DNA of 64,000 bases from IMG/VR virus record IMGVR_UViG_3300037247_001358, positions 1 to 64,000 of that record, one strand, 5' to 3'. The position numbers and the translations under genes were made by a program. Position 1 is the stretch's first letter. Every line of letters begins with the position of its first letter. This document shows positions 22,403-54,566 of this stretch, piece after piece. The DNA is from a virus. Below the pieces are notes generated by a model. The model had not been told where the DNA came from and ran no database searches. It saw only the letters and a program-made list of their open reading frames with translations.

Positions 22403-22435
22403 TGCGTCAGACTTGTCTCCTGTTGTAGTATAACA
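22403..22435 (-). promoter_or_regulatory. Extended -10 promoter plus AGACA-N4-TGACGCA operator
   Basis: On the minus strand TGTTATACT (22435-22427) is an extended -10 element without a clear -35. Eight bases on, the motif AGACAAGTCTGACGCA occupies 22418-22403, at about +1, followed by the ribosome site and ATG of the 49-residue frame. The motif orientation agrees with transcription toward the HExxH genes. Confidence 0.45.
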
Positions 22436-22540
22436 CAGCGGAGCGGTCAGAGTCGGTAACGGGGCCGACTGTGTTCCTTACACTGAGGCTATCCGCCAAA
22501 AGAGGGGGCTCTGCCCGCTCCGCACTCTGGAGTAACGCCG

Positions 22541-22774
22541 TTGAGCAAGACGCACAACTGCCAGATCCCCGGCTGCGAGACGGTCATCCGCGTCCGCTTC
22601 CTTTTCTGTCACGAGCATTGGGAGAAGCTCTCTCACTCCCTCAAGGACGCGGTGAACGACGAGTACCGCCTCTGGCAGGAGGTGGGCCAGGAGCAGCCGA
22701 CGGTCCGTTACAAGGAAGTGGCGCAGGCGGCGATCAACCACGTCGACAAGAGGGAGGAGGCCGAGAAAGCATGA
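22541..22774 (+). CDS. Small conserved phage protein with CxxxxC/CxxH cluster, 77 aa
   Basis: TTG start at 22541 (GGAG eight bases upstream), product MSKTHNCQIPGCETVIRVRF then LFCHEHWEKLSHSLKDAVN. The C-x4-C … C-x2-H arrangement looks like a small treble-clef zinc site, and the style is common in phages as an uncharacterised family. The C-terminus is helical and charged. Alone on the plus strand, it converges on the minus-strand pair at 22815-23185. Confidence 0.6.
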   Translation: MSKTHNCQIPGCETVIRVRFLFCHEHWEKLSHSLKDAVNDEYRLWQEVGQEQPTVRYKEVAQAAINHVDKREEAEKA

Positions 22775-22814
22775 GACCGGGGACGAAGAGGCTCCCACCC
22801 ACCGGCTCCTCCTC

Positions 22815-22994
22815 TCAATTCCGTCCCCGAAACGGCCTCCCGAGCCCGTCCCCCAGCTTGCGCTGCCAGATCCGCCGCATCTCACGCTGGACTTCCTTCC
22901 AGGAGAGCCCCGCCACCTCGGCAAGGCTCCGGTCGCTGATATAAGGACGGACACGAGGATCCAGGAGACGCCTCAGCAGTTTCTCATCCCTCAA
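22815..22994 (-). CDS. Small helix-turn-helix-like protein, 59 aa
   Basis: TTG at 22994 overlaps the upstream stop (TTGA), matching the coupling style of this phage. The product (MRDEKLLRRLLDPRVRPYIS then DRSLAEVAGLSWKEVQREMR) contains a plausible helix-turn-helix, with the turn near AEVAGLSW, and a basic C-terminus. It could be a small DNA-binding regulator of the neighbouring divergent promoters. A longer frame reaching 23222 is open but overlaps the next gene and is not needed. Confidence 0.5.
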   Translation of the reverse strand: MRDEKLLRRLLDPRVRPYISDRSLAEVAGLSWKEVQREMRRIWQRKLGDGLGRPFRGRN

Positions 22995-23185
22995 GCCTGC
23001 TCGTCCTTGTCCAGCAGCGCCTTCGCCCGCTTCAACGCCCCATCCGCGATCTCCCGCGCCAGAGCCCCCGCCTCGTAGGCCGGGGTCGGCTGGTTCTCCA
23101 CAGCCAGCTTGTTGATCTGCACCGCCATCGAGGCAATATGTATCAACTCCACCGCTTTCTCCGTATCCGTCGGTTCTCCGCTCAT
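22991..23185 (-). CDS. Hypothetical small helical protein, 64 aa
   Basis: Begins MSGEPTDTEKAVELIHIASM and continues as an alanine-rich helix pair (GALAREIADGALKRAKALLD). GAGAGGAGGAGACG precedes the ATG. The leader holds an AGACA-N4-TGACGCA motif. Translationally coupled to the helix-turn-helix-like gene downstream. Not recognised. Confidence 0.55.
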   Translation of the reverse strand: MSGEPTDTEKAVELIHIASMAVQINKLAVENQPTPAYEAGALAREIADGALKRAKALLDKDEQA

Positions 23186-23201
23186 CGTCTCCTCCTCTCA
23201 A

Positions 23202-23217
23202 TGCGTCAGACTTGTCT
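23202..23217 (-). promoter_or_regulatory. AGACA-N4-TGACGCA motif in the leader of the 64-aa gene
   Basis: AGACAAGTCTGACGCA on the minus strand, identical over 16 bases to the copy at 22403-22418, sitting 17 bases before the ATG at 23185. A weak extended -10 (TGGTAAGCT) lies seven bases upstream, the same geometry as at 22403. Confidence 0.45.
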
Positions 23218-23227
23218 CCCAATCAGC

Positions 23228-23257
23228 TTACCACAACCCCCGCCAGCGTGCTATAAT
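23228..23257 (+). promoter_or_regulatory. Promoter for the Acb2/Tad1-like gene
   Basis: TTACCA (23228-23233), 18-base spacer, TATAAT (23252-23257) preceded by TGC, i.e. a consensus extended -10. The start of transcription would fall about 30 bases before the AAAGGAGG ribosome site of the gene at 23298. Confidence 0.6.
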
Positions 23258-23297
23258 CCCCGCATCCCGCTGAGGCGTCACACGAAAGGAGGACAAA

Positions 23298-23624
23298 ATG
23301 TCCGAAATCACCTACGACGCAGACCGAGACCTCGGAACCATCAAACTCCTGGATCCCATCCCGGGCACCACGGCCGTCCCCATTCTCCAGGAGATCCAGT
23401 TCCAGCACGGCCCTGTGGGGGAGAACGGCGTCAACGGGGTCCAGAACGAGGACGTCCTGAAGCTGCTCGCCATGAGGCTACGGGGCCTGAACTCGTCCTT
23501 CCCCTGCCGGGAGAACAGCATCGCCATCACGAAGATCGAGGAAGCCCTGCTCTGGCTCGAGCACAGGACAGCCATCCGGGTGGAGCAGGGCGTCGAAGGG
23601 AAGAACGAGGCCCACACCTCGTAG
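23298..23624 (+). CDS. Acb2/Tad1-like protein (candidate cyclic-nucleotide sponge, anti-defence)
   Basis: The 108-residue product has a beta-rich N-terminal part with GVNGVQNEDVLKLL (about 45-58), then the helical hairpin signature CRENSIAITKIEEALLWL (about 70-87) and HRTAIRVEQGVEG. That R-E-N-S-x-A-x-T-K-x-E-E-A-x-x-W pattern is what I associate with phage proteins of the Acb2/Tad1 hairpin family, which sequester signalling nucleotides of CBASS or Thoeris defence. The gene has its own extended -10 promoter, AAAGGAGG ribosome site and terminator, so it is an independent early cassette. Family call is by eye; nucleotide binding is inference. Confidence 0.6.
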   Translation: MSEITYDADRDLGTIKLLDPIPGTTAVPILQEIQFQHGPVGENGVNGVQNEDVLKLLAMRLRGLNSSFPCRENSIAITKIEEALLWLEHRTAIRVEQGVEGKNEAHTS

Positions 23625-23650
23625 CACGCGAGCAGCCTCAGCGGGCACCT

Positions 23651-23685
23651 GCCGACGCTTCTCACGGGGCGTCGGCTCTCTTTTC
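23651..23685 (+). terminator. Intrinsic terminator after the Acb2/Tad1-like gene
   Basis: Stem GCCGACGC (23651-23658) pairs with GCGTCGGC (23669-23676) around a ten-base loop and is followed by TCTCTTTTC. It ends two bases before the next promoter element. Confidence 0.7.
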
Positions 23686-23686
23686 G

Positions 23687-23695
23687 TGCTATAAT
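23687..23695 (+). promoter_or_regulatory. Extended -10 promoter for the 89-aa gene
   Basis: TGCTATAAT at 23687-23695, in the same GTGCTATAATCCCC context as the promoter at 23252. No good -35 is visible upstream because the terminator stem occupies that space. Confidence 0.5.
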
Positions 23696-23744
23696 CCCCC
23701 TCGGGCCTGGAGCCACCGAGCCCGGAGCCACGAAAGGAGCCAAC

Positions 23745-24014
23745 ATGGAACCAAAGCACTTCCTCCTCCGTGTCTGGTCGGTAAAGCAAGACCGCGCAGG
23801 GCCAGACGTACACGAACCAGTCCCTCCAACATGGGAAGTTCGAGCCGATACCGGTCCGGGATTGGAGCAGGCGTCCCTTTTCTACCATGAGAGCGACCCA
23901 CGCAACCTTCCCAAGCCCGGCTACCTTATCCATATAACCGTCGATGAGTGTCTTGTTCGATCAGATGGTCGGCCGACCGTCGAAGATGCCCCTCTAACGG
24001 AACCCGAGTCGTAG
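23745..24014 (+). CDS. Hypothetical protein in an insulated cassette, 89 aa
   Basis: Begins MEPKHFLLRVWSVKQDRAGP; a mixed alpha/beta protein with no family I recognise. AAAGGAGCCAAC precedes the ATG. Like the preceding Acb2/Tad1-like gene it has a private promoter and a hairpin at its end, and it lies next to it, so it may be another small host-takeover or anti-defence factor. That is inference from neighbourhood only. Confidence 0.6.
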   Translation: MEPKHFLLRVWSVKQDRAGPDVHEPVPPTWEVRADTGPGLEQASLFYHESDPRNLPKPGYLIHITVDECLVRSDGRPTVEDAPLTEPES

Positions 24015-24040
24015 GGCTTCGCCGGCTCCAGGCCCTACTT
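24011..24040 (+). terminator. Terminator-like hairpin overlapping the stop of the 89-aa gene
   Basis: GTAGGGC (24011-24017) pairs with GCCCTAC (24032-24038) across a 14-base loop; the run after it (TTCTCC) is only moderately T-rich. Confidence 0.45.
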
Positions 24041-24364
24041 CTCCTCCCTACTTGACAATAAGAGACCTGCTTACATCTACGGTTTTAATGAACCCCGGGG
24101 ATTTTGGCTCTTCCCGACCCGTTTTCTTTACATAACGATACCCTTTTTCCAATTTTTCCTCTTGCCACGAGAGGGTTCAAAGCAGGGATCCGTGGTGTGT
24201 CGTAGGGAACGTCGCCGTTGCGTAAGGATGGTAGCGGGGTAAGGTACGGGTAAGGTGGCGCTCCGCTTCGCTCCGCGCTGCATCGTTCCGCTCCGCTGCG
24301 CTCCGCTCTCGGTTGAAAGGATAGTAACGTATGTATGTGCCCGCGTGTGCGCGTACTGAGCGGG
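24041..24364. other. Non-coding, repeat-bearing region between converging units
   Basis: No convincing gene is seen here. The left part (about 24050-24180) is clearly more AT-rich than the rest of the window, with ACGGTTTTAATG and CCCTTTTTCCAATTTTTCC. The right part has GGGTAAGGT-type repeats near 24236-24256 and a phased 10-base repeat at 24259-24308. It is bounded by hairpins facing inward from both sides. An AT-rich stretch beside iteron-like repeats is what a replication origin or partition site could look like, but a structured RNA is also possible. Confidence 0.4.
24259..24308. repeat. Five phased 10-bp repeats (CGCTCCGCNN)
   Basis: Units start at 24259, 24269, 24279, 24289 and 24299. 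Four contain CGCTCCGC exactly; the middle one (TGCATCGTTC) has diverged. The exact 10-base period places every unit on the same face of the helix, as protein-binding iterons would be. Confidence 0.6.
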
Positions 24365-24394
24365 GGCAAAGAGATGACCCCTACGCAGTAGGGG
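24365..24394 (-). terminator. Terminator for the minus-strand unit 24426-24811
   Basis: TAGGGG and CCCCTA (24389-24394 and 24378-24383) form a stem with a five-base loop; on the minus strand it is followed by TCATCTCTTTG. Confidence 0.5.
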
Positions 24395-24425
24395 CCTCTC
24401 GGGTTCGCGGCGGTTGTCGTCGATG

Positions 24426-24626
24426 TCAGCGGCGCTGAGGGACACCCACCTCATGCTGCGCCCTCAGCTCGGCGTCGTGTAGGTTGTCCACCGGGTCATG
24501 CGAGGGCCGGAACATCGGGCACTCGGGGTTGTGGGCGCCGCACCGGATGACGTACCGATCCTCTTCGGGCTGTAGCCGCACCCAACACCGACAACCGACG
24601 ACCTCCATCCCACCATAACCCTTCAT
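24426..24626 (-). CDS. Cysteine-rich small protein, 66 aa
   Basis: Begins MKGYGGMEVVGCRCWVRLQP and has five cysteines (C-x-C … RCGAHNPEC) plus several histidines, suggesting a metal site. GGAGGAGGGGCG precedes the ATG at 24626, which overlaps the upstream stop as ATGA. It is the second gene of the leftward unit driven by the divergent promoter at 24921-24949. Confidence 0.55.
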   Translation of the reverse strand: MKGYGGMEVVGCRCWVRLQPEEDRYVIRCGAHNPECPMFRPSHDPVDNLHDAELRAQHEVGVPQRR

Positions 24627-24811
24627 CGCCCCTCCTCCTCCAGCTGGGAGTGCTCCCGGCACCCACCGTCCCGGTAGCAGTCGATGCAGACCACCGGCGC
24701 CGGTTCACTGACCGCCGGCGCCGGTTCACTGACCGCCGGCGGTTGCAGCACCTCCAACAACAGCTTCTCGAGGCTCTCCGGGTCCAACGTTCCCCGTTCT
24801 AGGATCCTCAT
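24623..24811 (-). CDS. Small protein with tandem AVSEPAP repeat and Cys cluster, 62 aa
   Basis: Begins MRILERGTLDPESLEKLLLE, then two exact copies of AVSEPAP encoded by a 21-bp tandem repeat, then CIDCYRDGGCREH, a probable zinc site. GAGGAGGG precedes the ATG at 24811. As first gene of the leftward early unit it could be a regulator. The perfect DNA repeat indicates recent slippage or duplication. Confidence 0.55.
   Translation of the reverse strand: MRILERGTLDPESLEKLLLEVLQPPAVSEPAPAVSEPAPVVCIDCYRDGGCREHSQLEEEGR
24694..24735. repeat. Perfect 21-bp tandem repeat inside the 62-aa gene
   Basis: CCGGCGCCGGTTCACTGACCG occurs at 24694-24714 and again at 24715-24735, giving the in-frame heptapeptide duplication. 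Confidence 0.8.
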
Positions 24812-24883
24812 GTGCGTCCCTCCTCTCACTCTTAGTATCGGCCGGCCGGTCGAAAACTGAACCCCTCTAGACAGAAGAATCTC

Positions 24884-24905
24884 CCCTCCCCCCGTAGGGG
24901 GAGGG
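24884..24905 (-). promoter_or_regulatory. Strong leader hairpin between divergent promoter and first leftward gene
   Basis: CCCTCCCCC (24884-24892) pairs with GGGGGAGGG (24897-24905) around a four-base CGTA loop, a nine-pair GC stem within the first nucleotides of the leftward transcript. It is followed by GGAGATTCTTCTG rather than a pure T run, so it may attenuate, stabilise the 5' end, or stop antisense transcription. Confidence 0.4.
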
Positions 24906-24920
24906 CTGCTCCACATCTAC

Positions 24921-24989
24921 ATCATAGCATCATCTGGCCCATATGTCAAGTCACAGTGACTTGACATTCAGCCCCAGTTGTGGTACGCT
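24921..24989. promoter_or_regulatory. Divergent early promoters sharing a 25-bp palindromic operator
   Basis: The 25-mer at 24943-24967 is a perfect palindrome about one central base: ATGTCAAGTCAC, A, GTGACTTGACAT. Each arm contains a perfect TTGACA -35. Leftward: TTGACA (24949-24944), 17 bases, TATGAT (24926-24921). Rightward: TTGACA (24961-24966), 17 bases, TACGCT (24984-24989). A dimeric regulator bound to the palindrome would cover both -35 boxes, so both early units can be switched together. The XRE-type protein at 28278 and the small helix-turn-helix-like protein at 22815 are candidate binders. Confidence 0.75.
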
Positions 24990-25094
24990 GGTATTGTCGG
25001 AAGGTATTCATCCGGCGATCTGAGGTAGGAATTGGGTAGGATTGCAGAACCCTCAGATTCAGGAGCCGGAGATCCAGATTCGGAGGAGCGAGAC

Positions 25095-25298
25095 ATGGTC
25101 AATCCAAACCTCTACATCACGGACGATGGCACAATGGATACCGTCGTCGCCTGCGCCGCGTGCGACTGGGAAGGGCGATACAACCCCGATCCTGGTTATC
25201 CCAATGACGAGCCGGACGAGGGGTGGCGTGTCCGTGCGGCACTAGAAATGGCAGAAGAGGATCACGATTGCGGCCCTAGCGATGGGCCGCTCAACTGA
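25095..25298 (+). CDS. Small acidic Cys protein, 67 aa
   Basis: First gene of the rightward early array. Product MVNPNLYITDDGTMDTVVAC then AACDWEGRYNPDP, ending in EEDHDCGPSDGPLN. C-x2-C plus DHDC could bind zinc. CGGAGGAGCGAGAC precedes the ATG. Not recognised. Confidence 0.6.
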   Translation: MVNPNLYITDDGTMDTVVACAACDWEGRYNPDPGYPNDEPDEGWRVRAALEMAEEDHDCGPSDGPLN

Positions 25299-25315
25299 TA
25301 GGAAGGCGGGAGCAC

Positions 25316-25426
25316 ATGGACTGCATGGCGTGTAGCGGGCCGCTGCTACTCCTAGGAGCGTTGGGCCGCATCGTCTGGTACCGCTGCCAGGACTGCGGGC
25401 TCGACCAGTGGAGGAAGGCTAGGTGA
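25316..25426 (+). CDS. Tiny zinc-ribbon protein, 36 aa
   Basis: Encodes MDCMACSGPLLLLGALGRIV then WYRCQDCGLDQWRKAR. Two CxxC knuckles separated by 18 residues make a minimal zinc ribbon. GGAAGGCGGG precedes the ATG. The next gene starts five bases after its stop. Function unknown; one of many CxxC mini-proteins in this array. Confidence 0.6.
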   Translation: MDCMACSGPLLLLGALGRIVWYRCQDCGLDQWRKAR

Positions 25427-25430
25427 GCGT

Positions 25431-25763
25431 ATGAGGCGAAGATACCGGCGCTCGCGCACTGACTACCCGGCGGGTGTGCTGGCCGTGTACGACAACGGGG
25501 GGCGGACGGCCGACCGCTACACCGTGGTCTACACGCCTGAGCGCACAGTTACCAGAGGCTACCCTACCCGCGACGTGTTCCCCTACGTACACATGAGCAG
25601 CGACCCCTTCTGGCCGCAAGGCGTCTGCCAGCACGGGGAGCTGGGGTTCCGGCCTACAGCAGAGTGGGGGCGGGAGAAGGTGATCGCGTTTGAGGAGTTG
25701 CCGCCCGACTGCCAGCGGGCAGTGCGACAGGACTTAGCGGAAGAGGAGGCGACCTATGACTAG
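25431..25763 (+). CDS. Conserved-type early phage protein, 110 aa
   Basis: Begins MRRRYRRSRTDYPAGVLAVY and contains DRYTVVYTPE, RDVFPYVHMSSDPFWPQGVC and REKVIAFEELPPDC. This pattern is familiar from uncharacterised small phage proteins where a short beta barrel is predicted. The following gene starts inside its last codons. Confidence 0.6.
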   Translation: MRRRYRRSRTDYPAGVLAVYDNGGRTADRYTVVYTPERTVTRGYPTRDVFPYVHMSSDPFWPQGVCQHGELGFRPTAEWGREKVIAFEELPPDCQRAVRQDLAEEEATYD

Positions 25764-26091: not shown

Positions 26092-26158
26092 GGCGGTAGA
26101 CCAGACGGCAATCAAGGCAGTGAGAAGGGCGCTAGCCTAGCGAGAGGAGACGACTGGA

Positions 26159-26248
26159 ATGCTTCGACGCTGGATACTGAGATGGCTGGGGGCAGCACCC
26201 GCAGCGCATGACCACCACTACTGCAACCCGCGCTGCGATTGCCAATAG
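26159..26248 (+). CDS. Tiny Cys/His-rich peptide, 29 aa
   Basis: ATG at 26159 is preceded by GAGAGGAGACGACTGGA, the recurrent leader of this gene array. It encodes MLRRWILRWLGAAPAAHDHH then YCNPRCDCQ: a short hydrophobic/basic helix followed by an HDHH-Y-C-x3-C-x-C cluster that could bind a metal. Short length keeps confidence low, but the leader match argues for translation. Confidence 0.45.
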   Translation: MLRRWILRWLGAAPAAHDHHYCNPRCDCQ

Positions 26249-27978: not shown

Positions 27979-28281
27979 ATGACAGCAAGCGAGCACTACA
28001 TTCTGAAGGGTCACAAGGCCGTGCCCGCAGACCTGATGACGTGGGCACGATGGTTAGAGACCACCAGCCGACGGGTAGCCGAGACAAAAGTAGGGGCTGC
28101 GCGTGTCTCCACCGTCTTTCTCGGCCTGGATCACAGCTTCGGTGACGGGCCACCGTTGCTGTTCGAGACGATGGTGTTCGGTGGTCCGCTGGATGACGAG
28201 ATGGAACGCTACACCACCTGGGATGAGGCCGAGCAGGGCCACGCCAGGATGGTTGAGCGCGTGAGAGAGGAGGACGAATGA
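27979..28281 (+). CDS. Conserved-type early phage protein, 100 aa
   Basis: Contains YILKGHKAVPADLMTWARWL, STVFLGLDHSFGDGPPLLFE and TMVFGG … YTTWDEAEQGH. This matches a frequent uncharacterised phage family in which an F-LG-DH-F-G-GPP-LFETM-FGG core is followed by R-T-W-EA-GH. Overlaps the XRE gene start as ATGA. Confidence 0.7.
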   Translation: MTASEHYILKGHKAVPADLMTWARWLETTSRRVAETKVGAARVSTVFLGLDHSFGDGPPLLFETMVFGGPLDDEMERYTTWDEAEQGHARMVERVREEDE

Positions 28282-28463
28282 CAGCAGCCCAATTCAAGGA
28301 AGCCCGTAAGAAATTGGGGGTGTCTCAAGAGGCGCTCGCGCACATGCTGGGGATCTCGGTCCGGTCCGTGGCCCGGTACGAGAGGGGCAGCCACCCGGTT
28401 CCGAAGACCGTCGAGCTGGCGCTGCACTATCTGGTGGGCACAAGGAGGAAGCATCGTGGCTAA
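28278..28463 (+). CDS. XRE-family helix-turn-helix regulator, 61 aa
   Basis: The whole protein is one HTH domain: FKEARKKLGVSQEALAHMLG then ISVRSVARYERG, the standard Cro/C1-type signature with recognition helix SVRSVARYE. Length equals a minimal Cro-like repressor. It is in the rightward early unit, so it could feed back on the palindromic divergent promoter at 24943-24967. Preceded by GAGAGGAGGACGA. DNA target is inference. Confidence 0.8.
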   Translation: MTAAQFKEARKKLGVSQEALAHMLGISVRSVARYERGSHPVPKTVELALHYLVGTRRKHRG

Positions 28464-28866
28464 AAAGATGGGAGCCTACGGCGAGCCGTGGAGCGCAGAG
28501 GAAGGCGATGGCTATGTTCGCAGCCTCACAGCACCACCCTCCGGCTCGCGCATCTGTCAAGTCGTCCGCAATAGGGAAGCCTACGCCCGCCGGATCGTCG
28601 CCTGCGTGAACGCGGCGGCAGGGATACCAACGCCGATTCTGGAAGTGCTGACACCTGAAGGCTCATGGGCGGACCGCTTCACAAAGGCATGGATAGCAAA
28701 GTACGACACGCTGCTAGAGGCGCTGCCAGACATCGAGCTGCTGGCCCGCGTCGCTGAAGCCCTGGCCTATCGTGGGATAGAGCCAGCGTCCGACGTAGAG
28801 AAATTGCGCGTCGCAGCCGGGCGAATCCGTGCCACCATCGCAGAGGTGGAGCGCAGACAGACTTGA
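28456..28866 (+). CDS. Hypothetical early protein, 136 aa
   Basis: GTG start inside the end of the regulator gene. Contains NREAYARRIVACVNAAAGIP, reminiscent of phage proteins in which a N-x-x-N-A-R-R-I-V-x-C-V-N-A motif is common; the C-terminal half is helical. Its final codons carry the promoter motif of the next unit (28855-28870). Confidence 0.6.
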   Translation: MAKKMGAYGEPWSAEEGDGYVRSLTAPPSGSRICQVVRNREAYARRIVACVNAAAGIPTPILEVLTPEGSWADRFTKAWIAKYDTLLEALPDIELLARVAEALAYRGIEPASDVEKLRVAAGRIRATIAEVERRQT

Positions 28867-28891
28867 CGCACACAGCCCGCCCCGCTATAAT
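28855..28891 (+). promoter_or_regulatory. Promoter with AGACA-N4-TGACGCA operator
   Basis: The motif at 28855-28870 includes the -35 TTGACG (28863-28868); after 17 bases comes TATAAT (28886-28891). The promoter reads from the last codons of the upstream gene into the 29013 unit. A second, one-mismatch motif (AGACAGACCTGACGCA) lies in the leader at 28981-28996. Confidence 0.75.
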
Positions 28892-28980: not shown

Positions 28981-28996
28981 AGACAGACCTGACGCA
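28981..28996 (+). promoter_or_regulatory. AGACA-N4-TGACGCA motif in leader of the 68-aa gene
   Basis: AGACAGACCTGACGCA lies directly upstream of the AGAGGAGG ribosome site of the gene at 29013, about 90 bases downstream of the predicted transcription start. It differs by one base from the copy in the promoter at 28855. Confidence 0.5.
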
Positions 28997-29012: not shown

Positions 29013-29219
29013 ATGGCACTGGTTCTAACGCTAACCGGAGGGGCCGAGGATTACATCCTGATCAGCCACGGCGGCGAGTCGATCCGCATCCAGGTGCATA
29101 AGGCGGACAGGTCGAATCGCCCTGTCGTGGCCTTCCTCGCCGACGTTGCCAGCGGTGGCGCACCGCCGGCGAGTTGGCAGTTCGTACGCAAGGCGGTCAG
29201 AGAGCGAGAAGGTGGTTGA
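29013..29219 (+). CDS. Small beta-rich protein, possibly CsrA-like, 68 aa
   Basis: Begins MALVLTLTGGAEDYILISHG then GESIRIQVHKADRS, ending WQFVRKAVREREGG. An LVLT start, an E-S-I-x-I strand and a C-terminal R-K-x-V-R-E segment are reminiscent of CsrA-type RNA-binding regulators, but the middle is diverged. If right, it would act on mRNA leaders, which are stereotyped in this region. AGAGGAGG precedes the ATG. Confidence 0.5.
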   Translation: MALVLTLTGGAEDYILISHGGESIRIQVHKADRSNRPVVAFLADVASGGAPPASWQFVRKAVREREGG

Positions 29220-29358: not shown

Positions 29359-29528
29359 TGGAACCTAAGAGTGGCTATCAGAAGATGCTTCACCAGAACT
29401 ACCACATCGCCCAGAAGTTGGGGCCTGCGCCGAAGTGTCCTTACTGTCCTCAGAAGAAGGTTCCCTGCGTTCGCCGCCTGCTTGGGGTGCTCCTTAGGAG
29501 GAAGCCACGCCAAAGCGCGTCTCAGTAG
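29358..29528 (+). CDS. Small basic CxxC protein, 56 aa
   Basis: Encodes MEPKSGYQKMLHQNYHIAQK then KCPYCPQKKVPCVRRLLGVL. CPYC plus a third cysteine and a basic tail. AGGAGGAAGTG precedes the ATG. Its end overlaps the following winged-helix gene by 22 bases and supplies that gene's AGGAGG. Confidence 0.5.
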   Translation: MEPKSGYQKMLHQNYHIAQKLGPAPKCPYCPQKKVPCVRRLLGVLLRRKPRQSASQ

Positions 29529-29689
29529 AGGCAAGCAGGTTGCTACGGTTCGTCAAGGAGAACGCCAACGGAGCGTGCGGCCTCGAGGAGCTGGCCGGCG
29601 ACCTGCGGATGAGCCGGGCGGCGGTCGCCCGTGCCATCAAGGAGCTGGAGGCTGCGGGCATCATCAGCCTGCACGTAGAGGAGGATTGA
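29507..29689 (+). CDS. Winged-helix DNA-binding protein, 60 aa, apparent ACG start
   Basis: Reads (M)PKRVSVEASRLLRFVKENAN then GLEELAGDLRMSRAAVARAI and KELEAAGIISLHVEED, a complete winged helix of MarR/GntR-like type with recognition helix SRAAVARAIKELE. There is no ATG, GTG or early TTG. AGGAGG (29496-29501) lies five bases before ACG (29507-29509), the first possible codon after an in-frame TAG. A TTG 11 codons later would delete the first helix start. Either ACG is used or a T was lost in the sequence. Probable transcription regulator of the early/middle switch. Confidence 0.55.
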   Translation, partial: TPKRVSVEASRLLRFVKENANGACGLEELAGDLRMSRAAVARAIKELEAAGIISLHVEED

Positions 29690-29690
29690 G

Positions 29691-30044
29691 ATGAAGAAGT
29701 GCGCTGATTGGTGCGGGGGCGGCTGTACTCAGGAACAGTATGCCCAAGCTGTCCAAGCTGCCGACAAACTGGTCCAGCAACTAGGTGAGGGGTGGAGGCC
29801 CGAAGTGTATGAGAACCTTGGCTGGCATTTCGGTGCCGCATCGCCCTGCGACAGAGTACGGGTGTCTGTCCGCAAAGGGGACAACTATCTAGCGTTGATT
29901 GGTGAGGCCGGCTCCCATGCGGGGCAGTGGGCAGGAGTCGGAGACACCGCGAAGGCAGCGGTGGGTGCCGTCCTGGCACGGACCAAGGCCGAGAGAGACA
30001 AGCTGACCGCGTGGCTAGAGGACTTTGATGCTCGTCGTCGATAA
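29691..30044 (+). CDS. Hypothetical protein, 117 aa
   Basis: N-terminal cysteine cluster (MKKCADWCGGGCTQEQYAQA), then an alpha/beta domain with WHFGAA and VRVSVRKGDNYLALIGEAGS that resembles a small ssDNA/RNA-handling fold only loosely. Not recognised. Overlaps the helicase start by 17 bases. Confidence 0.6.
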   Translation: MKKCADWCGGGCTQEQYAQAVQAADKLVQQLGEGWRPEVYENLGWHFGAASPCDRVRVSVRKGDNYLALIGEAGSHAGQWAGVGDTAKAAVGAVLARTKAERDKLTAWLEDFDARRR

Positions 30045-33718: not shown

Positions 33719-34608
33719 CCCAGGCTCTCGGACTGCTGGCGCAGCGCCTCGGCGAACAGGTCGGGGCGCTTCCCTATCCGCTCCAGCACGTCGGAGCCGG
33801 ACAGCTCGGGCGGGTCCACCCCGTCATGGCCACAGAACTCGTAGAGGGCGAGCCGGAGGAACTTCGCTGGCAGGCTGTACCGCTGCACGGGCTCCAGGCA
33901 GGCCGCTAGGCCGGGCAGGGAGGCCGGCCCGGGGAAGGTGACGATCTTGTGGTCCGGGTAGCCGACGTTGACGGCGGCGTGGATCTCTTCGGCGAACTCC
34001 CAGCAGGCGTCCAGGTCTGAGACCGGCAGGCTACCGTTCTGACGCAGTGTTTGGAAGTAGGGGCCGGGTGCCCGCACTGACGAGACGAAGTGTGGGGAGG
34101 CCGGAAGGCGGGAGGAATAGAAGGATGCAACCCGATTCAGGAAATCCTCTTCCTCCTCAGCCGAGGAGGAGGATCCTTCTTCAGAAGGATCCTCCGAAGA
34201 GTCTGGTTCAGAGACCCTCTGGTTATCTAGGACACCCGTGTCCTTAGGGGTTAGGACACGGGTGTCACTAGGTAGGGACATACCAGGTATCTGACGGATG
34301 ACAGTGTAGAGGTTTGTGTCCAGCTCCTTTGTAGCTTCCCCGGAGTCATCTTCCTTCCAACGGTGCTCCACCCACAGCGCGCCAACCTCTTTAAGTTCTA
34401 TAAGGGCGCGGGCGATGTGCCGCACGGAACACTGGCAACGCTTCGCTAGGTAGGCCCGGCTAGAGAAAGAGGTGCGTGTCTTTCTGTCGGCCATCGTTGC
34501 CAGCACGCAGTAGAGGCGTATCGCTGTGGGGCTGATCTTCTGGTCCAGAACCCACTCTGGGAGTATGGCGAAGGGTCCGGTGTCGCTCTGTACGTCTATC
34601 TTCGGCAT
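33715..34608 (-). CDS. Replication-initiator-like protein with N-terminal winged helix
   Basis: The 297-residue product begins MPKIDVQSDTGPFAILPEWV, then TAIRLYCVLATMADRKTRTS and LAKRCQCSVRHIARALIELK, a winged-helix domain like those of phage replication proteins (helix_turn_helix_36-type). Residues about 110-160 are an acidic Ser/Glu linker (SSEDPSEEGSSSSAEEEED). The C-terminal domain is helical. This architecture resembles lambda O. The DNA encoding the linker carries two perfect inverted repeats. AGAGGAGAAAACG precedes the ATG at 34608. It is the only minus-strand gene in a long plus-strand stretch, so it is separately regulated. Confidence 0.7.
   Translation of the reverse strand: MPKIDVQSDTGPFAILPEWVLDQKISPTAIRLYCVLATMADRKTRTSFSSRAYLAKRCQCSVRHIARALIELKEVGALWVEHRWKEDDSGEATKELDTNLYTVIRQIPGMSLPSDTRVLTPKDTGVLDNQRVSEPDSSEDPSEEGSSSSAEEEEDFLNRVASFYSSRLPASPHFVSSVRAPGPYFQTLRQNGSLPVSDLDACWEFAEEIHAAVNVGYPDHKIVTFPGPASLPGLAACLEPVQRYSLPAKFLRLALYEFCGHDGVDPPELSGSDVLERIGKRPDLFAEALRQQSESLG
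34168..34266. other. Candidate replication origin: inverted repeats inside the initiator gene
   Basis: Two perfect inverted repeats lie 35 bases apart. The first is GGAGGATCCTTCT (34168-34180) with AGAAGGATCCTCC (34183-34195). The second is GACACCCGTGTCCT (34231-34244) with AGGACACGGGTGTC (34253-34266). They fall in the low-complexity linker of the initiator-like protein, exactly where lambda-like phages place their origin. No strong AT-rich element is adjacent, which weakens the case. Confidence 0.4.
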
Positions 34609-34693
34609 CGTTTTCTCCTCTTGACTTAGAGGCACCGCCCTGTTAGAGTGGGGGTACCGACGTATCAGGCCGCGATCATCATCGCACACCTCA

Positions 34694-34725
34694 CCCCTGC
34701 CCGCAAGGCGGGGGCTCGGTGTTTC
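34694..34725 (+). terminator. Bulged hairpin with T-rich tail
   Basis: CCCCTGCC pairs with GGCGGGG with one bulged base, followed by GCTCGGTGTTTCTT. It precedes the promoter at 34734 and may end transcripts that read through antisense to the initiator gene. Confidence 0.35.
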
Positions 34726-34733
34726 TTGGGGGC

Positions 34734-34762
34734 TTGACATTAGTGCGACAGACTTGTATGCT
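34734..34762 (+). promoter_or_regulatory. Promoter 1 of the structured-RNA region
   Basis: TTGACA (34734-34739), 17 bases, TATGCT (34757-34762). The spacer contains CGACAGACTTG, a partial copy of the phage operator motif. No open reading frame with a ribosome site follows before the hairpin at 34847. Confidence 0.6.
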
Positions 34763-34768
34763 GAAGAC

Positions 34769-34895
34769 GGACGGCCAGCTTCCTCCGCACGGAGGCGGCG
34801 CAGGGAGGCAGCAAGTTGATAAGGACATCTCGTAGGGAAAGGGAGTGGGAGCAGGGGGATCCCCCGCCACCGGACACCCCCCTGCTCCCAGGCCG
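34769..34895 (+). ncRNA. Candidate structured RNA 1
   Basis: From the predicted start near 34769 the transcript would contain a CCTCC/GGAGG hairpin near 34781-34795. It then has a perfect 12-base stem, GGGAGCAGGGGG (34847-34858) with CCCCCTGCTCCC (34878-34889), followed by a weak T run. No protein-like frame is seen. The stem could be its terminator or a functional fold. Confidence 0.35.
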
Positions 34896-34901
34896 CTCCT
34901 C

Positions 34902-34931
34902 TTGACACACAGGTCTGATTCCATGTAGATT
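34902..34931 (+). promoter_or_regulatory. Promoter 2 of the structured-RNA region
   Basis: TTGACA (34902-34907), 18 bases, TAGATT (34926-34931), starting seven bases after the end of candidate RNA 1. Confidence 0.5.
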
Positions 34932-34935
34932 GAGG

Positions 34936-35029
34936 GCGGAGGTGCCACCTCAGCCCTCCATAGGTCGTCGAGAGTTCCCCGCCGGGCAGTCCCACCCCGC
35001 CACCAGCAACCGGCGGGGGCTCTCTCCCA
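34936..35029 (+). ncRNA. Candidate structured RNA 2
   Basis: Two nested or stacked stems fill this stretch. One is GAGGGC (34932-34937, at the predicted start) with GCCCTC (34953-34958), enclosing GAGG/CCTC. The other is a 13-pair stem, GAGAG plus CCCCGCCG (34970-34984) with CGGCGGGG plus CTCTC (35011-35024). It ends directly before the next promoter motif. No ribosome site or coding frame is apparent. Confidence 0.35.
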
Positions 35030-35030
35030 C

Positions 35031-35068
35031 AGACAGACTTGACGCACACCCCCAAGCCCTGCTACGCT
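35031..35068 (+). promoter_or_regulatory. Promoter 3 with AGACA-N4-TGACGCA operator
   Basis: Motif at 35031-35046 containing TTGACG (35039-35044), then 18 bases and TACGCT (35063-35068), the same -10 as the rightward divergent promoter at 24984. Confidence 0.65.
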
Positions 35069-35074
35069 ATTCAT

Positions 35075-35158
35075 GGGGCACCGAGCCCCTCGCGGTAGCC
35101 GGTTGGTCCTTCCCCCTGGTATACTGTTCGGAGCCAAGCTCGGTGCCCCGCTTTCTTG
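35075..35158 (+). ncRNA. Candidate structured RNA 3 / leader of the 35180 operon
   Basis: GGGGCACCGAGC begins at the predicted transcription start (35075-35086) and pairs perfectly with GCTCGGTGCCCC (35138-35149). This closes a 75-base RNA, and GCTTTCTTGG follows. The stem could terminate the RNA or hold a leader whose loop contains a further extended -10 (TGGTATACT, 35117-35125). It lies just before the ribosome site AAGGAGG of the next gene, so riboregulation of that gene is possible. Confidence 0.35.
35117..35125 (+). promoter_or_regulatory. Extended -10 promoter for the 35180 operon
   Basis: TGGTATACT at 35117-35125. A transcript from here would begin inside the 51-base loop of candidate RNA 3 and so escape its 5' arm, which would free the downstream ribosome site. 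Confidence 0.4.
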
Positions 35159-35179
35159 GAAGGAGGAAAGCTGATAAAG

Positions 35180-35359
35180 ATGCCTGAAGACTACCCGTTA
35201 TGGTGCCTATCCTGCCGCCGGGAAGTCCCCGTGTGCCCTGCTGAGATGGGGCCGCCACCAATCGACATGTACTGCCCCGACTGCGGTCACCTACTATGTG
35301 AACTGCGGGAGGATCACGACCGAGCCGCTTTGGCGGGGGCGAGGAAAGTGAGGGAATAG
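35180..35359 (+). CDS. Zinc-ribbon protein, 59 aa
   Basis: Product MPEDYPLWCLSCRREVPVCP then DMYCPDCGHLLCELREDHDR: CLSC and CPDC knuckles with two extra cysteines define a zinc ribbon. AAGGAGG lies 13 bases before this ATG. A TTG at 35156 in frame would overlap that site, so ATG 35180 is preferred, though spacing is long. First gene of the middle operon. Confidence 0.55.
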   Translation: MPEDYPLWCLSCRREVPVCPAEMGPPPIDMYCPDCGHLLCELREDHDRAALAGARKVRE

Positions 35360-40675: not shown

Positions 40676-41634
40676 CCTACCTCGACGTCCTCGCTGAGCA
40701 CGGCCTTGATCCGCTCGAGACATCGGGCGGGCGGGAGCTGACCATCTGCTGCCCCCTCTGCCAGAGCAACAACAGGAAGCTCTACGTCAACGCCAAGACG
40801 GGCCAGTGGATCTGCTTCGTCTGTGAAGAGCGGGGCAATCCCTACCGCCTCCTCCGTGAGGTGCTGGAGATCGAGCACTTCCAGGCCATGCGCCTGCTCG
40901 ACAAGATCCAGAAGCAGGAGAGTGGCCCACGCCCGCTGTACGTCCCAGACCGTAAGGTCGAGGATGTCCGGCAGGAAGTAGAGACGCCGAGAGAGATGCA
41001 CCTCCTGACCGATCCCTCCCATCCCGGGCAGGGGGTGTTCTGGCGCTATCTGGCTCAGCGGGAGGTCTCCCCCGGTGACGTGCTCCGGCACCGGATGGGC
41101 TTCGCCCTGCATGGCCGCTATGCCTACCGGATCCTGATCCCGGTCTACAGCGAGGGGACGATGTGGACCTTCGCCGCCCGTACCATCCTCCCCGACGTCG
41201 AGCCGAGAGTCCTCTACGCGGAAGGTTCACATCCCAGCCGCGCGCTCTTCAACATCGACAACGTCACGACACCCGACGTCTTCCTGGTGGAGGGTGTCTT
41301 CGACGCACTCCGACTCCGCAGCAATGCCGTCGCCTCACTTGGCACCAACCTCTCGGCCCACCAACGAGACCTGCTCAGGCGGAAAGGCGTGAAGACTATC
41401 ATCATTCTCTGGGACGGCGACCCGCCAGGCCGAGCGGGGGCTGCCCGTGTCGCCGAGCAACTCCACGCTGCCCGCTTTCACGTCCGCCTGGCCCTCCTCC
41501 CCAACGGTAAGGATCCGGCGTCGGCTACCTGGCAGGAACTCCACACCGCCATCTTCCAGGCGGACGATGTGTCCTATCCGTATCTATCGACCCGGCTCAG
41601 CGCAGACAGACTTGACGCACAGATTCCAAAGTAG
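40672..41634 (+). CDS. DNA primase (zinc finger plus TOPRIM)
   Basis: The 320-residue product starts with a zinc-binding domain (Cys27/Cys30 in CCPLC, Cys48/Cys51 in ICFVC). It continues into a DnaG-like core (VSPGDVLRHRMGFAL, YRILIPVYSEG, ALFNIDNV) and a TOPRIM fold with FLVEGVFDALRL (catalytic Glu) and IIILWDGDPPG (D-x-D). It is shorter than DnaG and lacks a helicase-binding tail, as is usual for phage primases. ATG overlaps the methyltransferase stop as ATGA. Its last codons contain a phage promoter motif. Confidence 0.85.
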   Translation: MTYLDVLAEHGLDPLETSGGRELTICCPLCQSNNRKLYVNAKTGQWICFVCEERGNPYRLLREVLEIEHFQAMRLLDKIQKQESGPRPLYVPDRKVEDVRQEVETPREMHLLTDPSHPGQGVFWRYLAQREVSPGDVLRHRMGFALHGRYAYRILIPVYSEGTMWTFAARTILPDVEPRVLYAEGSHPSRALFNIDNVTTPDVFLVEGVFDALRLRSNAVASLGTNLSAHQRDLLRRKGVKTIIILWDGDPPGRAGAARVAEQLHAARFHVRLALLPNGKDPASATWQELHTAIFQADDVSYPYLSTRLSADRLDAQIPK

Positions 41635-41640
41635 TACCAT
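41604..41640 (+). promoter_or_regulatory. Promoter with AGACA-N4-TGACGCA operator for the SSB-recombinase unit
   Basis: Motif at 41604-41619 with TTGACG (41612-41617), 17 bases, TACCAT (41635-41640). It lies in the last codons of the primase gene and gives a separate transcript start for the highly needed ssDNA-binding protein. Confidence 0.65.
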
Positions 41641-50716: not shown

Positions 50717-51057
50717 TGGCTACTCAAGAGCCCTGCTTAGTCCACGGGCCACAGCCCATTCCTCCCCATCGAGCAGGGCGGTTCCTCAAGCTAATCTGTT
50801 GCGTCCACCTCGATCAGCAGTCGGTCGTCCTCTATCGACAGTTCCCTCCTTGGGGGGACACTATACACCGATACCCTTGGAGCTTGCGGTGGGAACTACC
50901 TTATCCTCCCCCAGACGAGGACAAGTTACGTGAGAGCTACCACATTGAGTTTGCTGACGAGCGAATAGCGCAGGCCATCTTCGAGCACTGTCGACGGGAG
51001 ATGCTGAGCGACGCCACACCCAACTCCGCTAGGAACTGGACGGCGTTGCTAATATGA
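50716..51057 (+). CDS. Hypothetical protein, 113 aa
   Basis: Begins MATQEPCLVHGPQPIPPHRA and is Pro/Trp rich in the middle, with a helical end (ADERIAQAIFEHCRREML). Not recognised. Its stop overlaps the polymerase ATG as ATGA. Confidence 0.6.
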   Translation: MATQEPCLVHGPQPIPPHRAGRFLKLICCVHLDQQSVVLYRQFPPWGDTIHRYPWSLRWELPYPPPDEDKLRESYHIEFADERIAQAIFEHCRREMLSDATPNSARNWTALLI

Positions 51058-54000
51058 CGGCACCAAAGGACTGCGATCGCTGTCCTGCCCTGGTCAAGTG
51101 CCGGAAGACGGTGGTAAATGGTTGGGGCAACCCGGATGCCCGCTTCGCGTTCGTAGGACAGAACCCCGGAGAATCTGAAGACGCTCAGGGCCGGCCCTTC
51201 ATCGGACGGGCCGGCCGCGTCCTCGCCACCATGATCCGGTCGGCTGACATCAACGTCGACGACGTCTTCCTCACCAACGCCGTCCGCTGCCTCACCCCGG
51301 CGATTAGGAAGCCTCGCAAGGATGAGTGGTCCGCCTGCCGGGAGTTCTTGCTGGAGGAGCTAGGGCGGGTCAAGCCGGACGTCATCGTCGCTCTTGGCGA
51401 GGTGGCCGCCCACACCCTCTACGGCCGTACGTCGCTCGACTCTGTGCTCGGGCAGACCCTCGTGCAGGAGGAGCTGGGCATCCAACTCATCGTCACGTAT
51501 CACCCGGCCTTCGTATTGCGTGGTCAGTGGAACGCCGTCCCGCTCATCCTCTCCCACTTCGAGAAGGCCAAGCGCATCGTCGCCGGGACACAGACGCTCG
51601 GGGAGCTGGGCGACTACGCACCGATCCTCACTATCGAGAACCTCAAGCTCCTACGGGACTACCTGCTGTCGGCTCCGCTTATCCACCTTGATTCCGAAAC
51701 AACCGGCAAAGAGTGGAAGGACGATGAGCTGCTTTGCATCTCCTTTGCTACCGAGCCGGGTGAGGGCTACGTCGTCCCCATCCTCCAGCGGGGAGGGGGT
51801 CGCTTCTGGGCCGACACTGAGCAAGCGGAGGCGATGATGATCATAGGTGAGATCCTCGCTTCGCCAGTACCCAAGGCTCTCCAGGGTGGGGCCTTCGACA
51901 TCAGGTTCTTCGAGCGGGAGCGTTCTTACCACATCACCGCACGGACGGCGTTCGGTTGGAGGTTGTTCAACCTCCAGCAGGACACCATGCTCATGCACCG
52001 GCTAACCCACGAGTACCTACCCAAGGAATCGACGCCGAACGAACTCCCCCACCTTCTCAGCTCCTATTCGGACATGCCTGTCTACGGGGACGAGGTGCGC
52101 AAGCAGTCGAAGAACAAGCTCCACATGGATGAGGTGGAGAACCGCTACCTCTGGGAATTGGCGGCCGCCGATGCGGACGCCGTCGCCCGCCTCGTCCCTA
52201 TCCTGGGACAGCAGCTAGACGAGGACGGCGACAGCCGCTGGATCTACGAGAACGTCAGCATCCCGATGGTTCGCTGCTGCCAGGAGATGACCCGGCGGGG
52301 GATGCTCGTCGACCAGGACTACTTCACCAGCCTGTGCGAGCACTACGAGCAGAAGGCCAGAGAGCTAGAGAAGCAGGCGTTTGAGATCGCAGGGCGGGAG
52401 TTCAACCCGAACTCGACGAAGCAAGTCCAGGACGTGCTGTTCCGCGAGCTGGCCCTCCCCAAGTCCGGTCGCAAGACCGGGGCCGCTACCGAGTGTGACG
52501 CCTGCGAGAAGGGTGCCTGCGAAAAGCACGATCAGGTCTCGGAGGACGCGCTGCTCGACATCAAGGGGCAGGTTGACCACCCCATCCTCGATGTCCTAAT
52601 GGAGATCCGCAGTGTCTCTAAGCTACGGGGCACCTATCTCGCGGGCACCGGCGGAGACAGCCAGGGCTTCCTGGGCCACATCCGGCGAGACGGCCGCATC
52701 CACCCGGAGTTCAAGGGCGGGTTTGCGGAAACTGGAAGAGCCGCATCCCAGAATCCGAACGCCCAAAACATCCCCAAAGGTGTCGAGATCGAGGAGCTAG
52801 GTACGAAGAACGCCTTCCGCCGTACCTTCATTGCTCCCCCCGGTCACGTCCTCATGGAAGCAGACTGGTCCCAGGCAGAGGTCTGGGTGACGGCCTACGG
52901 GCTGGCCGAGCAGTTCGGCGACCGGACCCTACTAGAGATCCTCGAGTCGGGGCGCGACGTCCACTGCGTCACACCGGAGACCCGGATTTTGACGGCGGAT
53001 CTCCTTTGGAAGGAGGCCGGACAGATCGTAGTTGGGGAGAAAATCCTTGGCTTCGATGAGGATCGGGCCAAAGGCAAGACACGGCACTACCGGGCCGCAA
53101 CTATCGTAGCCGCAAACAGGCAGAAGGCCCGTGTGTACGAACTACGCCTATCGGACGGGACGCGCCTACGCTCTACCGGAGACCATCGATGGCTGGTGAA
53201 GACGCGGGGTAAAGTAGACCGGGATACCAGAATGTACGCTTGGGTTCGCACCGATGAACTGGCCCAGCGTTGCAAGAGCCCTTGGAAGAAGCGCGGGCCT
53301 GTCCTGCCACGATACTTCCAACCGTGGGAGAGTGGGCAAGACTATGATAGTGGCTTCTTGGCGGGGGCATTTGATGGTGAGGGTTCCTTGTCAGGCTACG
53401 CGGGGCGTTACCGAGCACGGCTGGCATTCGTGCAGAACGACAACGCTCTCCTACGCGACGTCGAGATCGTCCTAAAGCAGAAGGGACACACCTACGGACG
53501 ACATGAGCGGAGCACCTCAACATCGCCTCGGACAGGGCTACCTACAGGTAATACAGTCGTACAGCTCGAACTGAACAACGGATTTGCTGGAACGCTCCGC
53601 TTCCTGGGCGAGATGCGCCCACCACGCCTTCTCGAGAAATGGCAGGAGATGTTCGAGAAGGATGAGTTTCTGGAGATGCGTGCCATCGATCAGGTCGTCG
53701 TTGAGGAGGTCATCGACCTGGGGGAGCAAACCATCATGGCGCTCCAATCCAATTGCCAAACCTACTTCGCCGAAGGGTTTGGGGCACACAACACCGCTGT
53801 CGGCCGCGCCATCTGGCCCGTCGACCTAGAGCTGGATGAGTTCGAGTGGGCTAAGGAGCACGACGACCTCCGCACCGACGCCAAGGTCTTCACCTTCGGG
53901 ATCACCTTCGGCCTCACCGTTGAGGGGATCATGGAGCGGCTACACTGCTCGAAAGAAGACGCTCAGCGCTACCTGGTGGCCTACCTGGAGATGGCACCGG

Positions 54001-54524
54001 GCCTGCGAGACTACAAGGACTACGTCCAGAACACCATACTGGCGGGAGAGCCTCTCACCAACAAGTTTGGGAGGCAGTGGCACTTCCCTCAAGTGGAAGT
54101 CATGAAGCTGTGCAACGCCAGGTTCGACCTCGAAGAACTGTTCCGTGAGGGAGTTAACCGGGGTATTCAAGGCGGGGCGTCCGACCTCCACTCACTAGCC
54201 CACGTCGACACGGAGTCCAACCCGAAGATGCGTGAGGTCTTCCGCATCATCGACGCCGTCCATGACTCCTGCCTCGCCGAGGTCCCGGCACCGGATCTCG
54301 CCACCGTGCTCGAGACGGCCTGGATGGTGAAGCACCTCTGGCAGGAGATCGCGCTCAACACCGTGCTGGCCGATGGCTCGAAGCTCGGCTGGCAGATCCC
54401 GGTAGAGGTGAGTTGGGGCCGGAACTGGGGGGATATGCCGTACGTCCTAACCGCCCGTGGTGGCCTCCTCTACAAAGGCCAGCCGGTGCAGACGGATATG
54501 ACGGCAGCACTTCCCATAGCTTAG
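51054..54524 (+). CDS. Uracil-DNA glycosylase / DNA polymerase A fusion containing an intein
   Basis: The 1156-residue precursor begins with a family-4-type UDG: 4Fe-4S cysteines 7, 10, 79 and 95, GQNPGESED (35-43) and TYHPAF (His150). Next comes a proofreading exonuclease with LDSET (Asp213, Glu215) and GGAFDIRFF. The polymerase motif A, DWSQAEVWV, begins at Asp604. A 276-residue intein interrupts at Cys638. The fingers motif KVFTFGITFG and motif C HDSCLAEVP follow. After splicing, a roughly 880-residue replicase remains. UDG domains on phage family A polymerases are, to my knowledge, rare (SPO1-type). The fusion would scan template or product for uracil. ATGA-coupled to the upstream gene. 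Confidence 0.9.
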   Translation: MTAPKDCDRCPALVKCRKTVVNGWGNPDARFAFVGQNPGESEDAQGRPFIGRAGRVLATMIRSADINVDDVFLTNAVRCLTPAIRKPRKDEWSACREFLLEELGRVKPDVIVALGEVAAHTLYGRTSLDSVLGQTLVQEELGIQLIVTYHPAFVLRGQWNAVPLILSHFEKAKRIVAGTQTLGELGDYAPILTIENLKLLRDYLLSAPLIHLDSETTGKEWKDDELLCISFATEPGEGYVVPILQRGGGRFWADTEQAEAMMIIGEILASPVPKALQGGAFDIRFFERERSYHITARTAFGWRLFNLQQDTMLMHRLTHEYLPKESTPNELPHLLSSYSDMPVYGDEVRKQSKNKLHMDEVENRYLWELAAADADAVARLVPILGQQLDEDGDSRWIYENVSIPMVRCCQEMTRRGMLVDQDYFTSLCEHYEQKARELEKQAFEIAGREFNPNSTKQVQDVLFRELALPKSGRKTGAATECDACEKGACEKHDQVSEDALLDIKGQVDHPILDVLMEIRSVSKLRGTYLAGTGGDSQGFLGHIRRDGRIHPEFKGGFAETGRAASQNPNAQNIPKGVEIEELGTKNAFRRTFIAPPGHVLMEADWSQAEVWVTAYGLAEQFGDRTLLEILESGRDVHCVTPETRILTADLLWKEAGQIVVGEKILGFDEDRAKGKTRHYRAATIVAANRQKARVYELRLSDGTRLRSTGDHRWLVKTRGKVDRDTRMYAWVRTDELAQRCKSPWKKRGPVLPRYFQPWESGQDYDSGFLAGAFDGEGSLSGYAGRYRARLAFVQNDNALLRDVEIVLKQKGHTYGRHERSTSTSPRTGLPTGNTVVQLELNNGFAGTLRFLGEMRPPRLLEKWQEMFEKDEFLEMRAIDQVVVEEVIDLGEQTIMALQSNCQTYFAEGFGAHNTAVGRAIWPVDLELDEFEWAKEHDDLRTDAKVFTFGITFGLTVEGIMERLHCSKEDAQRYLVAYLEMAPGLRDYKDYVQNTILAGEPLTNKFGRQWHFPQVEVMKLCNARFDLEELFREGVNRGIQGGASDLHSLAHVDTESNPKMREVFRIIDAVHDSCLAEVPAPDLATVLETAWMVKHLWQEIALNTVLADGSKLGWQIPVEVSWGRNWGDMPYVLTARGGLLYKGQPVQTDMTAALPIA
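52965..53792 (+). mobile_element. Intein with LAGLIDADG homing endonuclease in the DNA polymerase
   Basis: Residues 638-913 of the precursor. It starts with Cys638 in CVTPETRILTADLLWKEAGQ, block B is RLRSTGDHRWLVKT with the conserved T-x-x-H pattern, and it ends FAEGFGAHN followed by Thr914. A LAGLIDADG motif is present as SGFLAGAFDGEGSL (about 766-779), with a degenerate second copy near GFAGTLRFLGEM. Flanking exteins join as ESGRDVH and TAVGRAIW, which is continuous polymerase sequence just after motif A. All splice-site residues are intact, so it should be active for splicing. The insertion point in a catalytic motif is typical of inteins. Confidence 0.9.
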
Positions 54525-54528
54525 TCGC

Positions 54529-54566
54529 AGACAGACTTGACGCAGGCCCTTCCTGTCGCTTAGACT
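54529..54566 (+). promoter_or_regulatory. Promoter with AGACA-N4-TGACGCA operator for the endolysin unit
   Basis: Motif at 54529-54544 with TTGACG (54537-54542), 18 bases, TAGACT (54561-54566), directly after the polymerase stop and just before the amidase gene. Confidence 0.6.

Follow-up and report, generated by a model that had tools for sequence, protein, structure and literature searches.

Does the motif AGACA-N4-TGACGCA, which recurs at scattered places in the genome of an uncultivated phage, mark the sites of a single regulator, and are these sites stoperators of the actinophage kind, as the initial annotation had proposed? The window analysed is a 64,000-nucleotide stretch of a 69,343-bp record, whose 127-bp direct terminal repeat gives a circle of 69,216 bp. 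All seven copies listed in that annotation were recovered from the window with no mismatch to AGACANNNNTGACGCA, five on the plus strand and two on the minus strand; no exact copy is expected by chance, and a reversed-pattern control gave no match. Extending the scan to the whole 69,343-bp record, as had been suggested, revealed no exact copy beyond the seven. The element was also the largest repeat family in the genome in an unbiased all-against-all 16-mer search. Four copies (28855, 35031, 41604 and 54529), here termed class A, are identical over CAGACAGACTTGACGCA, which at up to three mismatches was observed six times against about 0.26 expected. On a scoring matrix the element copies reached 26-28 bits and the best of ten order-1 shuffles 14.1 bits, although the matrix was trained on these copies and on that of a relative, L028, and the members therefore score high by construction. 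Equally good copies inside genes, which had been named as evidence against an operator network, were looked for and none was found: a one-mismatch copy at 62657 falls within coding sequence, has no TG at its centre and is roughly what chance would produce.

The four identical copies overlap the -35 boxes of plus-strand promoters, as first described, and do so in one fixed register on sigma70-type promoters, all four with a -10 box at 17-18 bp. At 28855-28870 (plus strand, AGACAGACTTGACGCA) the -35 TTGACG (28863-28868) is followed after 17 bp by TATAAT (28886-28891), an 11 of 12 match to the consensus, and this promoter drives the unit beginning at 29013. The copy at 35031-35046 (plus strand), which reads AC instead of GC at its left edge, belongs to the final promoter of a tandem region beside the 5' end of the rep-initiator gene (TTGACG at 35039-35044, 18-bp spacer, TACGCT at 35063-35068). 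The promoter of the copy at 41604-41619 (plus strand; TTGACG at 41612-41617, 17-bp spacer, TACCAT at 41635-41640) drives the genes for a gp32-like SSB (41680) and RecA (42560), and that of the copy at 54529-54544 (plus strand; TTGACG at 54537-54542, 18-bp spacer, TAGACT at 54561-54566) drives an amidase/endolysin gene at 54576. The amidase -10 box ends 10 bp before the ATG; if it is right, the mRNA would start about 3 nt upstream and be nearly leaderless. Placement at operon boundaries held, but not the view that the copies are always intergenic, since the 28855 copy shares bases with the 3' end of ORF 28456-28866, and the 41604 copy lies wholly within the 3' end of the primase gene.

A -10 box (TAnnnT) at spacings of 16-18 bp has p = 0.012 for a random position. 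The motif occurs in 18 viral contigs, one of which (L020) is the same phage, and the other 17 hold chance copies that lack a -10 and were then used as a control. Together with the 17-mer in bacterial genomes (0 of 12), the 16-mer in these other viral contigs (0 of 17) gives no -10 among 29 chance copies, so the hexamer alone does not explain the -10 boxes of class A. It is of interest whether the copies simply make a promoter strong, as an extended -35 read by host RNA polymerase, and stay alike because every promoter serves a single host sigma factor. ACTTGAC is indeed common to the element promoters and to others, such as those at 24961 and 37552, but CAGACAG upstream and GCA downstream of the -35 lie outside any -35 hexamer and are missing from the other strong promoters of the phage, the copies at 22403, 23202 and 34744 are away from any -35, and the same positions hold other letters in every copy of the distant relative described below. 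We regard this explanation as highly improbable.

The remaining exact copies occupy leaders, one on the plus strand and two, identical to each other, on the minus strand, in agreement with the initial annotation. The latter two (class B, AGACAAGTCTGACGCA) lie at 22403-22418, 8 bp downstream of the extended -10 TGTTATACT (22427-22435), and at 23202-23217, 7 bp downstream of TGGTAAGCT (23225-23233). The first stands directly before the RBS and the ATG at 22390, at the beginning of the leftward (structural) unit, and the second precedes the RBS of ORF 22991-23185. In both cases TGnTAnnnT lies 7-8 bp ahead of the copy (p about 0.001 for each), and judging from these promoter positions the class B sites would span leftward transcript positions of about +2 to +17. 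Classes A and B have identical outer letters, while their central eight bases, CAGACTTG and CAAGTCTG, are exact reverse complements; equivalently, the N4 between CA and TG is GACT or AGTC. The leftward promoter belonging to the 23202 site overlaps that of a gene at 23298-23624, whose product has a match to the Acb2/Tad1 hairpin domain (E 5.7e-5, below gathering), making it a possible anti-CBASS/anti-Thoeris sponge. The plus-strand leader copy, AGACAGACCTGACGCA at 28981-28996, is just upstream of the RBS and ATG at 29013 and about 110-126 bp downstream of the 28855 copy, 126 bp being 12 turns at 10.5 bp; its -35 is destroyed by its C.

Searching with the 8-mer CAGACTTG, which occurs exactly seven times genome-wide, all on the plus strand and all within the element family, exposed an eighth, degenerate copy at 34744-34759 (ATACAAGTCTGTCGCA on the minus strand with two mismatches, CAGACTTG on the plus strand). 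It lies within the 17-bp spacer of a plus-strand promoter at 34734-34762 (TTGACA at 34734, TATGCT ending at 34762). The claim that each copy points along its own transcript thus stands for all seven exact copies but not for the eighth, which is reversed in a plus-strand promoter. Of the eight sites, seven fall in non-coding sequence or at the edge of a gene, a placement open to about 13% of positions, and seven, all but 28981, lie inside a promoter that can be recognised or in its first ~20 bp.

The three leader copies (22403, 23202 and 28981) are just before RBSs, which raises the question of an RNA element acting on translation. Start-associated sequences (SAS) of Cluster K phages similarly sit by the RBS or start (PMC3203893). 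The SAS is an AGGAG repeat at the RBS of many genes, whereas the present element is upstream of the RBS, contains no AGGAG and has only these three leader copies, half of all copies being upstream of the transcription start, as are those of class A. An Rfam search for an RNA element gave no match, and the leaders fold no better than shuffled sequences; because this is so for the class B leaders, DNA rather than RNA is probably what is read. An RNA element seems scarcely credible.

The eighth copy is part of a 573-bp non-coding region (34608-35180) between the rep-initiator ATG at 34608 on the minus strand and an ATG at 35181 on the plus strand, with tandem plus-strand promoters at 34734, 34902 and 35039. 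A start of the rep-initiator upstream of 34608 was ruled out by codon pattern and RBS. Each tandem promoter is followed by a strong hairpin, for example GGGGCACCGAGC...GCUCGGUGCCCC (z -3.4), and the region is possibly a small-RNA cassette or a replication control region. The same tandem-promoter layout (9916, 10204, 10338) is found in the distant relative G007, where the interval at L042 10050-10195, between two of the promoters, has a tRNA-like fold with a 7-bp acceptor-like stem (UGCGGCG/CGUCGCA) and a T-arm-like CCGG-UUCAAAU-CCGG, although default ARAGORN calls it neither tRNA nor tmRNA.

Relatives were sought with PolA, primase, RecA, helicase, TerL and amidase, and the search returned L020 and L027 (the same phage), L028, L029-L031, G007 and L046; no close relative was found among isolates. 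The phage under study (G000) was compared with L028 and G007, so that two genomes bear on class A and two on one class B site. In the structural region L028 has about 84% DNA identity to G000 and retains the 23202 site in the form AGATAAGTCTGACGGA, placed 8 bp past the extended -10 TGGTAGGGT, while the 22403 site has no counterpart there. In L046, an amidase relative, the upstream region is different and GACTTGAC occurs nowhere in the record. G007 is a distant syntenic phage with about 45-55% protein identity (PolA 45%, DnaB 54%, deaminase 69%), and its comparison covers class A, its contig ending before the class B region. It has an element of its own, GCGAAAA[CG]ACTTGAC, in five copies that are all on the plus strand and all at -35 boxes (TTGACT), each with a hexamer resembling a -10 located 16-18 bp further on. 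Three places are orthologous: 35031 and 10338, at the final promoter in the array next to the rep-initiator gene; 41604 and 15673, before the SSB gene; and 54529 and 30196, before the amidase gene. Within these pairs the flanking 60 bp agree at 7-19 of 60 positions (about 12-32%), and the two elements agree at 12 of 16 letters (GCAGACAGACTTGACG and GCGAAAAGACTTGACT), the differing letters being common to all five G007 copies and to nearly all G000 copies.

These comparisons indicate that the places are conserved between G000 and G007 while the letters have changed in concert, as would be expected if one co-evolving trans-acting protein reads all copies. With one recurrent sequence at start signals in G000 and another spelling at matching promoters of a distant relative, the element is most likely where a single phage-encoded switch protein binds to control the course of infection. 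The proposal that one regulator has dispersed sites at early-to-middle, replication, lysis and leftward promoters draws support from this arrangement and from the -35 overlap. If the phage had instead recruited the binding site of a host regulator, the concerted divergence in G007 would require another host regulator. A search of 84,980 species genomes found the 17-mer as 12 single copies, scattered over unrelated phyla and none with a -10, and recruitment of a host site appears most improbable.

The strand distribution bears on a further explanation, in which a phage nickase reads the core and the copies are sites of site-specific single-strand interruptions, known in phages tf, T5 and phiKMV. 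All seven occurrences of CAGACTTG and all five of the G007 element are on the plus strand, whatever the direction of the transcript, and the core ACTTGAC is loosely like TACT/RTGMC. In phage tf the nick consensus is on the top strand only and near relatives use a variant (PMC3517423), which resembles the short, one-stranded and relative-specific repeat seen here. The sequence is different, however: TACTRTGMC occurs never on the plus strand and once on the minus strand of this phage. Moreover, of the nine sites in LUZ24, which carries the consensus, none comes as close as 400 bp to an annotated promoter and the majority are inside genes, whereas nearly all sites here are at promoters in a fixed relation to the -35 and -10 boxes. 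Nick sites are thus a very unlikely explanation.

We consider it reasonably probable, though far from assured, that one DNA-binding protein of the phage recognises the element and, as a repressor, times or restricts these transcription units by blocking polymerase; this repressor is likely the XRE protein encoded at 28278. The sites, their fixed register on promoters, the orthologous site kept in L028 and the concerted change in G007 are observations, whereas protein binding, repression and the identity of the protein are inferred. Acting on host-type (sigma70-like) promoters, the bound protein would cover the -35 box at replication, lysis and middle promoters (class A), the first transcribed bases at two leftward promoters (class B), and the spacer at 34744; the most economical reading is that it would block RNA polymerase in each case. 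The copies overlap promoters by position as in phage repressor operator sets in general, at the -35 (four), in the spacer (one) and at +2 to +17 (two), and have a genome-specific consensus that co-diverges at three orthologous promoters of G000 and G007.

A repressor is favoured over an activator because of these three geometries around promoters. The fixed class A register on the -35 would be equally expected from an activator, and lambda CII and T4 MotA recruit polymerase near the -35, their sites being phage-specific elements in a fixed register at the -35 of middle or delayed promoters. The present element may likewise be an activator box, with an early phage activator recruiting host RNA polymerase to middle and late promoters and repressing the two leftward ones. 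This reading, which we hold possible but doubtful, would suit the shared -35 register (four of four promoters here, five of five in G007), the -35 boxes that end in G in all four class A promoters and in T in their G007 counterparts, not in the consensus A, the weakness of several -10 boxes (TACCAT, TAGACT, TACGCT) and the absence of the element from early promoters. Unlike MotA and CII sites, however, these promoters retain the full -35 core TTGAC; no homologue of either protein was found, and copies lie in the spacer (34744) and past starts (22403, 23202, 28981), where activation is not expected; the promoter at 28863, matching 11 of 12 consensus positions, should not need an activator.

The early promoters lie apart from this network. 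At 24916-24989 two divergent promoters (TTGACA-17-TATGAT on the minus strand, TTGACA-17-TACGCT on the plus strand) have both -35 boxes within a 25-bp perfect palindrome, ATGTCAAGTCACAGTGACTTGACAT (24943-24967), and no copy of the element. Lacking it, they appear to mark an unregulated or differently regulated early class, and early promoters are without the element in both phages (24944/24961 in G000, about 1530/1545 in G007). A gene of the early operon at 26277-26654 matches the Ocr DNA mimic (Pfam PF08684, above cutoff) and possibly encodes an anti-restriction protein.

Which protein might read the element? The rightward units encode the XRE protein (28278), a UvsW-like helicase, dCMP deaminase, a DnaB-like helicase, primase, gp32-like SSB, RecA, a UDG-PolA fusion with an intein, and amidase, and the leftward unit encodes terminase and the major head protein. 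The fusion (51054-54524) is one 1156-aa protein composed of uracil-DNA glycosylase, 3'-5' exonuclease and family A polymerase with a LAGLIDADG/intein insertion, and it aligns over its full length in G007. Among the proteins scanned there was no integrase, sigma factor, RNA polymerase, parA or two-domain repressor (about 180 aa); the HTH proteins found were small regulators of only 60-61 aa and, as the other, the rep initiator. Of the three regulators named in the initial annotation, the XRE protein is plausible and the winged-helix protein (29507) less so, while the region of the 59-aa protein (22815) was set aside, having no DNA-binding domain match. The XRE/HTH_3 protein (28278-28463, plus strand, 61 aa), a product of the early rightward operon, stands first among the candidates, though unproven, since it has the size of Cro, is made early, adjoins two sites, and is conserved with a partly changed recognition helix: a small XRE gene is in the same place in both phages (divergent G007 orthologue at L042 3908-4105), with ISVRSVARYE in G000 and YSVFTLARRE in G007. 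The G007 gene has no element nearby within three mismatches, so the XRE-linked sites are not conserved. The second candidate is a winged-helix (MarR/HTH_24-like) protein of 60 aa (29507-29689, plus strand; orthologue at L042 4924-5121), and in G007 it is conserved equally with the XRE protein (42% and 39%). Its ORF has no convincing ATG or GTG start, with ACG after the RBS, and the G007 orthologue begins with ATG. The G007 homologue of the gene at 29691-30044 is relocated between PolA and amidase (L043 9848-10192).

In a more far-reaching form of the proposal, the 61-aa early protein alone would run the whole programme of a large phage, activating or timing replication and lysis where the GACT centre is on the -35 and repressing the leftward late promoters where the AGTC centre is past the start, with element and protein co-evolving as a specificity unit that related phages could swap. 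This is a speculative suggestion, and we think it unlikely.

Assignment to the actinophage stoperators did not survive comparison of consensus, site number, placement and repressor type, and on these four grounds the element was not filed under Cluster A. Cluster A mycobacteriophages such as L5 and Bxb1, with a gp71-type repressor, have dispersed asymmetric sites of 13-16 bp for one phage regulator, some in promoters and some just downstream, mostly aligned with transcription and with a phage-specific, co-diverging consensus (PMC6550527, PMC9283540). The element is likewise dispersed, mostly transcript-aligned and phage-specific. Its sites, however, number eight, against 20-30 in Cluster A, and almost every one belongs to a promoter, with none seen deep in operons, whereas most Cluster A sites are away from promoters in the short intergenic spaces of operons. 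The L5 consensus GGTGGMTGTCAAG had no match in the window at zero or one mismatch, a repressor of about 183 aa with an N-terminal HTH and a stoperator domain was not found here, nor were an integrase or parABS; as for orientation, the seven exact copies follow transcription and the 34744 copy does not. The stoperator label appears to hold as an analogy only. Operators of the lambdoid/434 Cro-cI type are pseudo-palindromes of 14-17 bp, read by a Cro-sized HTH protein and placed over the -35, spacer or start. The outward half-sites TGTCT/TGACG around N4 resemble these, but the sites are spread over about 32 kb and not gathered in one switch region, and no cI/cro pair or integrase was recognised.

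Taken as a whole, the copies look like a real and functional regulatory network with good comparative support. For an uncultivated phage group they provide a map of regulatory connections that can be put to the test, in which the element marks promoters of a regulated class serving replication and lysis genes and probably late ones as well. The joint change of letters between G000 and G007 would amount to a natural swap of protein-DNA specificity, useful for mapping residues against bases, and the regulation of promoters may thus be predictable from metagenomic phage genomes alone.
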